Source of the DNA: Psychrobacillus vulpis
Lineage (GTDB): Bacteria; Bacillota; Bacilli; Bacillales_A; Planococcaceae
Reading direction: 5' to 3'
Assembly: GCF_006861825.1 (NCBI RefSeq)
Contig: NZ_VDGI01000009.1
Coordinates: 71,710 to 129,473, forward strand
DNA: 57,764 bases
The translations under genes were made by a program, and so were the position numbers. The notes below the pieces were generated by a model. It made no database searches. It worked only from the letters and a program-made list of their open reading frames with translations, and was not told the DNA's origin. Positions 1 to 44,690 of the stretch are shown in pieces (positions within the stretch are counted from its first letter, which is position 1; every line of letters begins with the position of its first letter).

Positions 1-101
1 TCCTGCGGGAAAAGCGAGACTGACGAGACCCTGCAGGAGCCAAGCGACGAAGCGGCTCGGCGCTCGCCCGCGGAAAGCGAGCGGTAAGCTTCGGAAAACC
101 T
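1..101 (+). repeat. Type A palindromic repeat, left end cut by window
   Basis: GC-rich intergenic element in an AT-rich background. It begins inside the conserved box CTCCTGCGGGAA and runs through CTCGCCCGCGGAAAGCGAG to the right arm AAGCTTCGGAAAACC. The outer left arm lies off the window. Recognised by alignment to copies at 35235-35343 and 43607-43729. Confidence 0.8.
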
Positions 102-197
102 ATCTACCCTATATTAAAAAACTACAGACAACTCTTTTTTTAGTTTATCTATTTCAATTATTAAAATGAATAATTTAAATTAAAAGGTTATTGTTTT

Positions 198-13787: not shown

Positions 13788-13949
13788 GTTTTAAAATAAG
13801 ATTCGAACATGATTGGCAAGGCGATTTTCGCTACAGGCTATGCTTTCCGCGGGCTTGGCTTGAGCCTCCTCGTTGCAAGCTGAGGACACTGAAAAAGTCC
13901 CTATAATTCGATTTTGCCAAATGAGGTAGTTTAATATTTCAGTAAATAA

Positions 13950-14064
13950 GAAAATCGTTGAAACGGCTCCCTTTCCGCGGGCGTTGCCTCAGTCTCCTCG
14001 CTTTGCTGCGGGGTCTTCGACTAACGCTATTCCCGCAGGAGTGTCGCCTTTTTCAACGATTTTC
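13950..14064 (-). repeat. Type B palindromic repeat
   Basis: Arms GAAAATCGTTGAAA and TTTCAACGATTTTC; boxes TTCCGCGGGC and TTCCCGCAGGAGTGT in reverse orientation to the copies at 373 and 554. Confidence 0.85.
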
Positions 14065-14116
14065 TAGAAGTGAAAAAAGTCCCTATAATCAAGTGGTACA
14101 ATAACCCAATAGATAA

Positions 14117-14296: not shown

Positions 14297-14352
14297 GAAA
14301 ATCGTTGAATTGGCTCCCTTTCCGCGGACGTTGCCTTAGCCTCCTCGCTTCG
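14297..14352 (-). repeat. Type B repeat, truncated at apex
   Basis: The left half of a B element. It breaks at CTCGCTTCGA and is followed directly by GGGCACTGAAAA. Confidence 0.75.
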
Positions 14353-14410
14353 AGGGCACTGAAAATCTCGAATTAGTATTTTTGTAGGAACTATTTGCTG
14401 TATTTATTTA

Positions 14411-14603
14411 AGAGAATTTAGCGCGACGCATGAGACTCCTGCGGGAAAGCGAGACAGACGAGACCCCGCACGAAGCAACAGAGATGAAGGAAGGCTAAGG
14501 GCGCCTCTTCCTGAGGCAACGCCTTCATGACCAACATCGTGTTGGCCCGAGGAGGCTCGTCGCTCGCCCGCGGAAAGCGAATGCCAAAGCGCAAAATTCT
14601 CTT
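14411..14603 (+). repeat. Type C repeat carrying hairpin module F
   Basis: Arms AGAGAATTTAGCGC and GCGCAAAATTCTCT enclose GACTCCTGCGGGAA and CGCCCGCGGAAAGCGA. About 60 bp of module F, with hairpin CCAAC-ATCGT-GTTGG, is inserted at the apex (14489-14547). Confidence 0.8.
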
Positions 14604-14819
14604 AGGACTATTTGATAGATTATTATTCTAATAACACTTTTTCAGTGCCCTTCTCGCTTTGCTGCGGGGTCTCAAGACTCAAGCTACTCCCGCTGGAGAC
14701 AAACTTTCCGCTCCAATCCATCCAATAAATGTAACTAGGACTATTCAAATAGAGTTGATCGATATAATGACAAGGAATCAAATCCCATGTATAGAGTTGG
14801 ATAATTTCGTAAAGCACAA

Positions 14820-25749: not shown

Positions 25750-25773
25750 AAAGCCGCTCTGCATAAGCGGCTT
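25750..25773 (-). terminator. Hairpin terminator, copy 1 of a duplicated hairpin
   Basis: AAGCCGCT-CTGCATA-AGCGGCTT, followed on the minus strand by TTTTCTTTTCC. An identical hairpin core is at 25999-26022. This copy keeps the T tract expected of a terminator for the IDEAL gene; the two are separated by a type E repeat. Confidence 0.7.
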
Positions 25774-25995
25774 CAGACTGTTGACAAACGCTTTCATTCT
25801 TCGTTACTGGCACTCGTTGTAAGCTCATGAACTTAAGTTCTATTTCGCGGACTCACATGATGTGAGTTAGGCAACCGTTGCCACAGGACGTGGCGTACTT
25901 AGGTTGCGAACCTCTAAACGCGCGGCGCGCCTCGACTGACAAGCGTTTTCAAGTCAATCTGAAGTGACACCTTCGAAATTTGATTTTGTCTACAA
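25774..25995 (+). repeat. Type E repeat carrying module F
   Basis: Ends CAGACTGTTGACAAA and TTTTGTCTAC form an imperfect inverted repeat. The interior shares GTAAGCTCATGAAC and GGCGCGCCTCGACT with 20628-20728. Module F is at 25850-25912 in reverse orientation, with hairpin ACTCACATGATGTGAGT. Confidence 0.65.
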
Positions 25996-25998
25996 AGT

Positions 25999-26022
25999 AA
26001 AGCCGCTCTGCATAAGCGGCTT
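25999..26022. repeat. Hairpin, copy 2 of duplication flanking type E repeat
   Basis: Same AAAGCCGCTCTGCATAAGCG core as 25750-25773, here extended to a 16 bp stem by TACAAAGTA/TACTTTGTA. It overlaps the stop codon of the IDEAL gene. Confidence 0.75.
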
Positions 26023-26258
26023 TACTTTGTATTTTGTAATTGATGTAATGCTTCTGTGTATTTCAAAAACGCAGCTCGATCTTTTTTGTCTAGCGCCTCA
26101 TCAATCAATTCTAGCAATCGCAAACTACTTTGTTCCCGGTGGATAATGTTCAAAAACATATCAAGATATATTTCGTTCAACAATTTTTCGGCAGAGCTTT
26201 CTTTTCCTGTGTGACCCATTGCTCTCAAAAAATCTGCATATGAATATTGTTTGTCCAT
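26022..26258 (-). CDS. IDEAL-domain protein
   Basis: A 78-residue helical protein. The last third holds the IDEAL motif region (LLELIDEALDKKDRAAFL), a small domain found in Firmicute proteins and named after this sequence. Molecular role unknown; in some ComK-related proteins the domain is linked to competence control, and comK lies next door at 26438. I prefer ATG 26258 because GGGGTG lies 8-9 bp upstream; an ATG two codons earlier is too close to it. Confidence 0.8.
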   Translation of the reverse strand: MDKQYSYADFLRAMGHTGKESSAEKLLNEIYLDMFLNIIHREQSSLRLLELIDEALDKKDRAAFLKYTEALHQLQNTK

Positions 26259-34954: not shown

Positions 34955-35109
34955 TCAAATGGAAGGCAACCTAAGTTCGCCGCATTCCGTGGAAACGGTT
35001 GTATGACCCACATCGTGTGGGTCTCAACGCCTCTATAACCAACATCGTGTATTGCCCAAGCGGCTCGGCGCTCGCCAGCGGAAAGCGAGCGGTAAGCTTC
35101 GGAAAACCT
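34955..35109 (+). repeat. Type A right half carrying module F
   Basis: Module F (34961-35056) with hairpin GACCCACATCGTGTGGGTC (35005-35023) precedes the A right half (GCTCGGCGCTCG, AAGCTTCGGAAAACC). A second partial F hairpin (CCAACATCGTGTATTG) is at 35039-35054. Confidence 0.7.
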
Positions 35110-37382: not shown

Positions 37383-37552
37383 TAGTCTCACCAGTTCCAT
37401 TTCCTCTCCCATTACGCTTACGAGGTTAGCTGTCGGATTTGGGCCAAAGAGTAGCCCTACCTACATTCGTAGGATTCACCCCATATGACTCATCAAAGCC
37501 ACATAAAATGGTTCCCCCGTTCCGGATGGATTAAGCGATATAGAAATATGAA
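37383..37552 (-). promoter_or_regulatory. ydaO-type c-di-AMP riboswitch
   Basis: Minus-strand landmarks of the ydaO-yuaA class appear in order: CGCTTAATCC, GGAACGGGGGAACCA, GGGGTGAATCC, TAGGGC, CCGACAGCTAACCTCGTAAG and GGAGAGGA. Ligand binding promotes termination in this class. A -10 TATAAT is at 37560-37565. Confidence 0.92.
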
Positions 37553-43600: not shown

Positions 43601-43606
43601 TAAAAT

Positions 43607-43729
43607 AGGATACCGAAGCTTACCGCTCGCTTTCCGCGGGCGAGCGCCGAGGCGCTTCGTCGCTATGCTCCTGCAGGGTCTCGTCTGTCTCGCTTTTCCC
43701 GCAGGAGTCGAGCGGACGCTTCTCCAAAC
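43607..43729 (-). repeat. Type A palindromic repeat
   Basis: Arms CCGAAGCTTACCGCTCG and CGAGCGGACGCTTCTCC; first hairpin CTCCTGC/GCAGGAG is well formed. Reverse orientation to 35235-35343. Confidence 0.85.
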
Positions 43730-43856
43730 TATAAAATGCTACCTTTATACTTTGATGGAAAATGATGATTAGAAACCAAAATTATGAGCGCGCCCAATTA
43801 GAGATAAATATATACCAAGGTCCAATCAGTCTTTTATCTTTAAATAGGATAGATCA
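43730..43856 (-). repeat. Spacer between paired A repeats, inverted copy of 35125-35234
   Basis: Contains AAACCAAAATTATGAGCGCG and CCAAGGTCCAATCAGTC, the reverse complement of the spacer next to the A repeat at 35235. So A-spacer-A is a larger repeated unit. Confidence 0.75.
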
Positions 43857-44209
43857 AGTTTTCCGAAGCTTTCCGCGGGCGAGCGCCAAGCCGCTTCGTC
43901 GCCAAGCTGAGGGCACTGAAAAAGTCCCCTAAAATCAGCTTTTCAGATGGAGTTGTACAATAACCCAATAGATAAGAAAATCGTTGAAATGGCTCCCTTT
44001 CCGCGGGCGTTGCCTTAGCCTCCTCACTTCGCTGCGGGGTCTTCGGCTAACGCTATTCCCGCAGGAGTGTCGCCTTTTTCAACGATTTTCTAGAAATGAA
44101 AAAATATGCATCTTAAAAATAGACAGTTTTTCAGTGCCTTGCTATGCTCCTGCAGAGTCTCGTCTGACTTGTTTTTCCCGCAGGAGTCGAACGGACGCTT
44201 CTCCAAACC
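43857..44209 (-). repeat. Type A repeat interrupted by extended type B
   Basis: A halves are 43857-43911 (TTTTCCGAAGC ... GCTTCGTCGCCAAGC) and 44139-44209 (TATGCTCCTGCAGAGTCTCG ... GGACGCTTCTCCAAACC). Between them is 43912-44138. Confidence 0.78.
43912..44138 (-). repeat. Extended type B repeat inserted in a type A repeat
   Basis: Outer ends GGCACTGAAAAAGT and ACAGTTTTTCAGTGCC; inner B element at 43976-44090. Confidence 0.8.
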
Positions 44210-44224
44210 ATTAAAATGTTACCT

Positions 44225-44400
44225 TTCTACTTTAATCTTGTCATGTGTTGAATCAATGAAGATATGGTCTGCATGAAGAAGTCCTTTATCCTTGAATCTT
44301 TTAAAATACGAAAGTAAATCTGTTCGAAGACATCCAAGTCTTCTAATTTGGATACTAAATGATGGTTTGGTAAAAGCTGCTCAATGGTTAGCTGTTCATG
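44225..44400 (-). pseudogene. IS1182-type transposase remnant
   Basis: Two pieces of a transposase survive in different frames. The first (from about 44400) reads EQLTIEQLLPNHHLVSKLED, like the IS1182 N terminus. The second (about 44300 to 44225) reads KDKGLLHADHIFIDSTHDKI, like the DDE-region IDSTH motif. Several hundred codons between them are gone. It lies between repeats at 44209 and 44460. Confidence 0.7.
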
Positions 44401-44459
44401 TTAATTGATTTAATTTTTCGTCATCCTATCTTTTTCCTTGGATACTTTTTAGAGCACTA

Positions 44460-44586
44460 GTTGATTGGAACGGAGGGCGACGACTCCTGCGGGAAAAGCG
44501 TGAGTCTTGAGACCCCGTAGGGAGCATAGCGACCGAAGAGGCTCAAGCCACGCCCGCGGAAAGCGTTCGCCCGGAGTGGAAATCAA
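44460..44586 (+). repeat. Type D palindromic repeat
   Basis: Outer arms GTTGATT...GGGCGACG and CGTTCGCCC...AATCAAC. Inner arms GCGTG...CTTGAG and CTCAAG...CACGC. Boxes ACTCCTGCGGGAA and GCCCGCGGAAAGC as in types A-C. Confidence 0.8.
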
Positions 44587-44607
44587 CTGCATTCCATTTT
44601 AAAAAAA

Positions 44608-44690
44608 TGACTGTAGGCAAACTGAAATTTCTTTGAGTTTGTCTCCAGCCTGAGCGTTTCTACTTCTGTAGAAACTCTGTCTAAGTAAGT
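44608..44690 (-). terminator. Two hairpins after EamA transporter gene
   Basis: One hairpin is GAGCGTTTCTAC-TTCT-GTAGAAAC (44655-44678). The other, on the minus strand, is GGAGACAAACT/AGTTTGCCTACAG region (44608-44652), followed by seven T. Confidence 0.7.

Follow-up and report, generated by a model that had tools for sequence, protein, structure and literature searches.

The repeat examined here, termed the rod, is a hairpin-shaped DNA element of roughly 125 bases that occurs in many Bacillus-like genomes and keeps its shape while its sequence changes. In Psychrobacillus vulpis it is the body of IS1182-type MITEs, and these units have landed mostly in rods, chiefly at the apex. Its fold is conserved, it has grown in copy number as the body of IS1182 MITEs, and carriers of several types contain it. 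We give roughly even weight for and against the view that the rod is a structure-coded, non-autonomous mobile module of the Bacillales, spread as the internal body of units bounded by terminal inverted repeats (TIRs). The best explanation taken whole, which includes movement in trans by ordinary transposases, above all those of the IS1182 family, and a role as a landing site, seems likewise finely balanced.

Copies, fold and distribution

A preliminary description of the window, the whole 57,764-nucleotide stretch of contig NZ_VDGI01000009.1 that was analysed, listed eight copies of a repeat with constant boxes: A (43607), B (373, 554, 13950 and 43976), C (14411 and 47344) and D (44460). All eight are present, and the boxes recur far above chance, with 13 matches to one (at most 2 mismatches) and 18 to the other (at most 1) versus 0.48 and 0.40 expected. 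The covariance model that had been proposed was built (R1) from an alignment of 89 diverse copies (A1), in which the only row from the window is the 44458-44589 copy. At E≤1 it finds 14 matches in the window, every named copy among them, and all but one reach E≤3.5e-13; the additional ones lie at 1 (cut by the window edge), 190, 14112, 34768, 35232 and, weakly, 14632. An inserted element interrupts one more A copy (about 43853-44210). The rods and related features are as follows.

44459..44589, + strand: rod, D type (GTTGATT arms), the copy under study; R1 123.1 bits, and sequence
43603..43733, − strand: rod, A type; R1 100.3 bits
43912..44138, no strand: IS1182-type MITE in the apex of the second A rod; ends GGCACTGAAAAA / TTTTTCAGTGCC, flanks judged by eye
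About 43853-43911 and 44139-44210: second A rod, split halves around the MITE 43912..44138
43971..44094, − strand: rod, B type, within the MITE 43912..44138; R1 89.1 bits
14355..14649, no strand: IS1182-type MITE in the apex of a B-like rod; from end pattern and duplication analysis
About 14300-14354 and 14650-14722: outer remains of the B-like rod; R1 match 14632-14722 (−), 20.1 bits
14411..14603, + strand: rod, C type, within the MITE 14355..14649, with a Bacillaceae-1 element in its apex; R1 85.7 bits
14479..14545, + strand: Bacillaceae-1 element (Rfam RF01690) in the apex of that rod; rod matches on either flank, scores 59 and 53
13945..14068, − strand: rod, B type; R1 86.1 bits
14112..14231, − strand: rod, B type; R1 75.3 bits
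369..492, + strand: rod, B type; R1 82.5 bits
550..673, + strand: rod, B type; R1 86.9 bits
190..311, + strand: rod, A/B hybrid with mismatched arms; R1 50.4 bits, no rod fold
1..104, + strand: rod, A type, cut by the window edge; R1 81.6 bits
34768..34891, − strand: rod, B type; R1 86.4 bits
35232..35347, + strand: rod, A type, shortened apex; R1 73.7 bits
47344..47474, + strand: rod, C type; R1 100.4 bits
44210..44355, − strand: remains of an IS1182-family transposase gene, divergent from rod D; tblastn E 2e-5 to 3e-5
44609..44651, no strand: terminal hairpin of the same IS1182 relic (GACTGTAGGCAAACT..AGTTTGTCTCCAGCC); sequence and L043 match
37399-37547, − strand: c-di-AMP riboswitch (ydaO/yuaA leader); 105 bits

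A diverse subset of 106 was drawn from 208 distinct copies. Of that subset, 95 fold into a single rod and 89 were aligned, the other six (L008, L022, L042, L053, L164 and L179) being short or cut. The alignment, made without regard to structure, yields 31 predicted pairs, of which 21 change on both sides. Paired cells amount to 91.8%, versus 74.1% when shuffled and 39-45% when slid, and cells changed on both sides number 487 versus 155. A null that preserves phylogeny was also used, in which inferred substitutions were replayed along a FastTree tree at random columns (60 null alignments; our own script, after the R-scape idea). Against it, significance at E<0.05 is reached by 14 of 7260 column pairs; all but one are structure pairs, and the exception, columns 70-89, flanks the apex. 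The compensatory change and conserved fold of the preliminary description are supported, and in the kind of statistical test that it had proposed the covariation holds against shuffles, slides and the phylogeny-preserving null. Because the boxes served to pick the copies, their invariance is partly a matter of choice; for the arms, folding was the only selection.

Two structural details of the earlier account stand in part. Arms are complementary within most copies but not in the copy at 190, and the boxes do face each other, although they are mostly paired together (CT/AG, CTGCGGG/CCCGCGG) rather than opposed in an internal loop. Bases of the rod stay unpaired in three places: on one side only, in a run that follows the left box; in a slight asymmetry inside the boxes; and in 3x3 loops beyond them. 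The four strands of the outer 3x3 loops read GNA in 70/88, 56/89, 49/89 and 68/89 rows. At the apex, 171 of 221 distinct segments are readable; 108 have triloops, 79 of them GNA, and the loop is closed by C-G in 128. The 38 tetraloops include 5 GNRA, 11 GNYA and no TNCG.

These data bear on the proposal that rods are decayed IS1182 leaders with no present role, whose arms differ through drift and gene conversion. IS1182 remains adjoin the D copy, chimeric and truncated rods occur at one orthologous site, and one relic has a rod at each end, all of which speak for it. Drift would break pairs, yet the paired fraction is about twice that of slid arms, 13 structure pairs survive the phylogeny-preserving null, and the boxes are near invariant, though in copies picked by those boxes. 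We regard decay without function as improbable. At the orthologous site, which lies within a genus and was compared by eye, the rod persists with different inner arms, and other copies are truncated or decayed; its chimeric copy indicates that arm swapping by gene conversion may add to point compensation. In L253, compared with L254 and L255, each arm resembles that of a different relative and the arms are mismatched, likely by gene conversion between rods.

In the P. vulpis genome (4.02 Mb, 76 contigs) there are 198 exact box-to-box elements, and the left box plus NAGC, with at most 1 mismatch, matches 275 times (134 forward, 141 reverse). Of 151 genomes in its family, itself among them, 77 have at least one exact element, as do 44 of 398 genomes of the class; 16 other genomes of the genus have from 0 to 14 each. 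Genera among the matches listed include Lysinibacillus, Sporosarcina, Caryophanon, Peribacillus, Neobacillus, Rossellomorea, Halobacillus, Oceanobacillus and others. The match listed for Caryophanon latum agrees in sequence, contig number and position with that of genome G034. The 44458-44589 copy, used as query, matched 15 plasmid records at 60-80% identity and no phage record. Rods also stand under the record names Arthrobacter beigongshangensis and Bacillus subtilis DE0224 (L105, L101, L117), perhaps mislabelled or contaminated records. In three genomes the counted rods all lie on one contig strand (G200, 9/9 minus; G328, 6/6 plus; G157, 4/4 plus), a pattern from which most high-copy genomes differ. 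No Rfam family matched the rod; RF01690 alone reached its gathering score, inside or beside some rods, and the rods of L136 matched nothing in Rfam at that level. Searches of open-licence papers listed no description of the repeat, which may be in print elsewhere.

IS1182-type MITEs and other carriers

The B and C rods sit within units of about 200-300 bp with ends GGCACTGAAAAA. These ends are common to a resident IS1182 with an intact transposase frame, L061, whose 492 residues are assigned to IS1182 by NCBIfam NF033551 (367 bits, cut-off 270). Its left end is GCCACTGAAAAA, its leader holds an A-type rod, and its right end lies beyond the contig; a second, partial copy (L062) supplies the right end GGACACTGAAAAA.

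Because a first test of the DNA flanking the units used loci picked by rod boxes, it was repeated on loci chosen by MITE ends (pattern GGCACTGAAAAASTS), with the threshold of the earlier test, the highest of 120 controls. Thirty loci gave 29 ends, L390 having been dropped because its end is too near a contig edge. Rod sequence scores above threshold beside 27 of the 29 ends (the misses are L371 and L387), which are non-independent in that three units were seen from both ends. Of these 27, 21 are placed near the apex, at 0.40-0.65 of rod length, and the right half accounts for 5. Paired ends define 18 distinct units, 16 of them carrying a rod.

With element ends taken as AG/CT, mean identity between the two target flanks is 0.56 at length 10 versus 0.41 at 9 and 0.40 at 11, and 14 of 32 pairs reach 80% identity at length 10, a count that includes some nested pairs made up of non-partner ends. 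Shifting the element ends outward by one base makes the same register 8 bp, and shifting them inward by one base makes it 12 bp. The units have duplicated about 10 bp of target, at constant length. The fold, the rod-flanked ends and this duplication together support the mobile palindromic element suggested in the preliminary description. Insertion of rod-bearing units into rods accounts for the nests at 43853-44210 and 14300-14722, among others. The pattern GGCACTGAAAAASTS omits units ending in GCCACTG, such as a rodless one of 154 bp with GCCACTG / GCCACTGAAAAA-type ends that recurs within the right box of B rods. None of its eight copies (L008, L023, L024, L027, L374, L378, L386, L389) contains a box at up to 3 mismatches, so rod cargo is not needed for landing there.

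It is possible to combine these observations in one scheme. TIR-bounded rod units would be mobilised in trans by ordinary transposases, chiefly of the IS1182 family, and the folded rod, as a cruciform or a single-stranded hairpin, may be recognised as a landing site. Each new rod-bearing copy would then supply a new non-genic site, so that the family would feed on itself by nesting. The demand for shape, together with the fixed boxes, would preserve arm complementarity even as arm sequences drift or are exchanged among copies, and the rod would be kept because its folded form serves as a landing site or is bound by protein.

Targets of IS1182 elements elsewhere were sought in 11 further loci (G015, G051, G047, G026, G006), where the model found no rod outside the IS. 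Mirrored outer flanks, as expected of a hairpin-like target, occur in L419, L420 and L421 (scores 18, 14 and 14; control maximum 10), are borderline in L415 (10), and are absent in the other seven. A palindromic target is thus clear in 3 of the 11 only, and hairpin choice is unproven as a general rule. For relatives of the IS1182 unit described here, hairpin targeting is plausible given the IS1272 precedent.

Other carriers were found through their rods and are examples of existence, not of frequency. Genome G015 has four copies of a rod unit with ends GGGTCTTTACCAAAA / GGCTCTACACCAAAA and exact duplications, TTTATTTT and TTCTTATC, in L188 and L189. Three units with ends GGCTSTTTTCG, each with a rod, occur in the named loci, and their 8-bp duplication is exact in L097 and L138. 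In G034 a rod unit of 162-164 bp lies between TATAT and ATATA in 8/8 fetched copies. Searches for the transposases of these three unit types found none, and the G015 unit ends are absent at two G015 ISL3 copies (L224, L250). ISL3 leaders were considered as a source of rods and set aside: of 30 ISL3 loci, rods were seen only in L240 (three matches) and L232 (weak). A tentative and somewhat doubtful extension would have one shape-coded module, with covarying arms and two fixed boxes, adopted inside units of unrelated transposon families. On that reading IS1182 (duplications of about 10 bp), two unit types that duplicate 8 bp and a TA-flanked type would share the module as a common internal landing pad or protein-binding hairpin, the elements carrying their own target.

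The Bacillaceae-1 element, listed in Rfam as an sRNA (RF01690), has rod sequence on at least one side in five of six copies (flank score above 15): 14479-14545 and 34955-35021 of the window, L025:1575-1641, L389:1344-1410 and L018:1020-1086. Rod sequence is clear on both flanks at 14479 and in L389. The sixth copy, 25852-25918 (−), lies between GACTGTTGACAAAC and TTTGTCTACA (window 25760-26030), which resemble the ends of one IS1182 group, within a flanking terminator-like repeat. Instead of an RNA gene, RF01690 may be an element that inserts into loops.

Leader rods, solo rods and the favoured strand

The D copy belongs to an IS1182 relic. Its region, 44459-44654, matches the IS1182 leader of L043 (1604-1399) at 79%, and 44242-44342 and 44354-44425 match the L043 transposase at the DNA level; remains of that transposase lie within 44210-44425. 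Leader match and transposase remains together identify rod D as the leader rod of a decayed IS1182. The L043 IS also occurs in Lysinibacillus fusiformis (L133).

In 30 IS1182 loci (L061 and L192-L220, several at contig edges), a rod lies upstream of the transposase domain in 11, and in 10 of these it is antisense (L061, L193, L197, L202, L209, L211, L212, L214, L216, L218); the one sense rod, in L215, is a weak match. Four transposases of this rod-bearing-leader survey were checked as IS1182. The rod stands between the terminal hairpin and the transposase start or remains in L197, L202, L209, L211, L212, L216 and L218; L193 and L215 depart from the order terminal hairpin, rod, transposase. Similar IS without rods exist (L206, L207). 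An IS1182-type relic in L281 and L282 bears two outward-pointing rods, one close to either end, of which the second is a short variant. Antisense leaders are known from IS10 and IS200. Leader rods of IS1182 are a likely source of some solo copies.

Most solo rods stand apart from IS1182 genes. A gene match lies within 1.2 kb of 11 of 120 rods, and 4 of the 11 (L106 twice, L128, L143) are doubtful because the query frame overlaps its own rod. Only 6 of 105 solo rods have inverted repeats outside the arms above the control 99% level, in a scan that is conservative since the controls include high scores (maximum 26); TIRs do not, then, bound all rods. Rods and IS1182 genes show no co-occurrence among 61 genomes (both, 17; rod only, 10; IS only, 24; neither, 10), and movement of a bare rod was not seen.

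Of 94 rods in named loci, 3 lie within long frames and 89 have two classifiable neighbours: 41 are tandem co-oriented, 20 tandem opposed, 20 convergent and 8 divergent. No housekeeping partner emerged, since 23 of 24 divergent neighbours are ordinary by eye and one (L142) is transposase-like.

Gene context and base pairing bring in the reading that rods are structured RNAs, either 3'-UTR or intercistronic elements or antisense RNAs in IS1182 leaders, kept by selection at the RNA level, mobility doing no more than distributing them. With IS1182-linked rods removed, 40 of 58 tandem rods are co-oriented with the genes (p=0.005), as are 8 of 9 where the genes oppose the majority strand, a weak hint of transcript-level selection that favours RNA. 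Rods show no bias to the G-rich strand (51/103), to the majority gene strand (54/105) or to a replication strand, and leader rods are antisense to the transposase in all but one rod-bearing locus. At 20 variable pairs there are 67 G.T and 19 A.C mismatches, whereas shuffling gives a ratio of 1.1; either pairing is selected on the ACTCCTGCGGGAA strand as a single strand, or a strand-biased mutation pattern mimics selection. In the former case a single-stranded state of the rod is probably important.

Several results weigh against RNA. In a second set only 16 of 29 rods are co-oriented (pooled 56/87, p=0.0097). A consensus scan of 147 rods shows no excess of promoter-like sites upstream in the rod sense (27/147, equal to antisense), the highest of four windows being 3' of the rod on the antisense strand (43/147), nor an excess of terminal T-runs (19/147 after the rod versus 13/147 on the other side). 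A discrete sRNA gene gains no support from the first count, and an intrinsic terminator was rejected on the second, which agrees with the preliminary statement that these are not simple terminators. The Rfam match is absent, and the apex loops are rich in GNA triloops, with few GNRA and no TNCG. In DNA, C-GNA-G hairpins have exceptional stability and GNA/GNA loops are likewise extra stable; the GNA triloops lean towards a DNA form, though no more than suggestively. Covarying helices are present, and would be equally expected of folded single-stranded DNA. We consider the RNA reading unlikely, though a substantial minority case.

The same strand-specific pairing, the mostly C-G-closed GNA caps and the GNA/GNA 3x3 loops would suit a hairpin of single-stranded DNA with a dedicated HUH (Y1/RAYT-like) transposase to move it, in the manner of REP/BIME, and the genome has one Y1 gene of RAYT-like size. 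Fifty Y1-gene loci (30 returned by the search, 20 around RAYT-like matches) contain a single weak rod match, in L325 (25.3 bits), and replication-strand bias is absent. A RAYT gene flanked by the repeat was thus not seen in these loci, and a dedicated HUH transposase is quite unlikely.

Relation to known systems and significance

Movement by IS1182 transposases has its closest precedent in IS1272, a member of the family that is reported to target stem-loops (PMC5678879, PMC4923244). Like IS1272 and IS1182-family MITEs, rod units have TIRs in common with a resident IS1182 and insert into hairpins (PMC5678879, PMC4923244). IS1272 is reported there to replace the stem-loop without duplication (PMC5678879, PMC4923244), whereas rod units duplicate about 10 bp; moreover, the hairpin carried and the hairpin targeted are one conserved family in rod units. 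REP/BIME sequences and their RAYTs resemble rods as high-copy intergenic palindromes with a preferred strand, but are given as 20-40 bp (PMC3733652) rather than about 125 nt, and no RAYT lies beside rods in the loci examined; the GTAG or CGTC tag of REP/RAYT hairpins is named in the title of that paper (PMC3733652). The Bacillus cereus repeats bcr1-18 are described as elements of 100-400 bp from Bacillales and are called mobile (PMC6542083). By that description they are confined to the B. cereus group and tied to TTTAT (PMC6542083), which sets them apart from rods, found in many other genera. RF01690 shares places with rods but is a 67-nt element in or beside the apices, not the rod itself.

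A widespread covarying element of the Bacillales has thus matched no curated Rfam family. If the RNA reading were true, rods would constitute a large unlisted RNA class. If instead rods do act as landing pads, they would clearly exemplify a transposon that brings along the structure it targets, and hundreds of naturally varied hairpins would allow shape-directed transposition to be tested.
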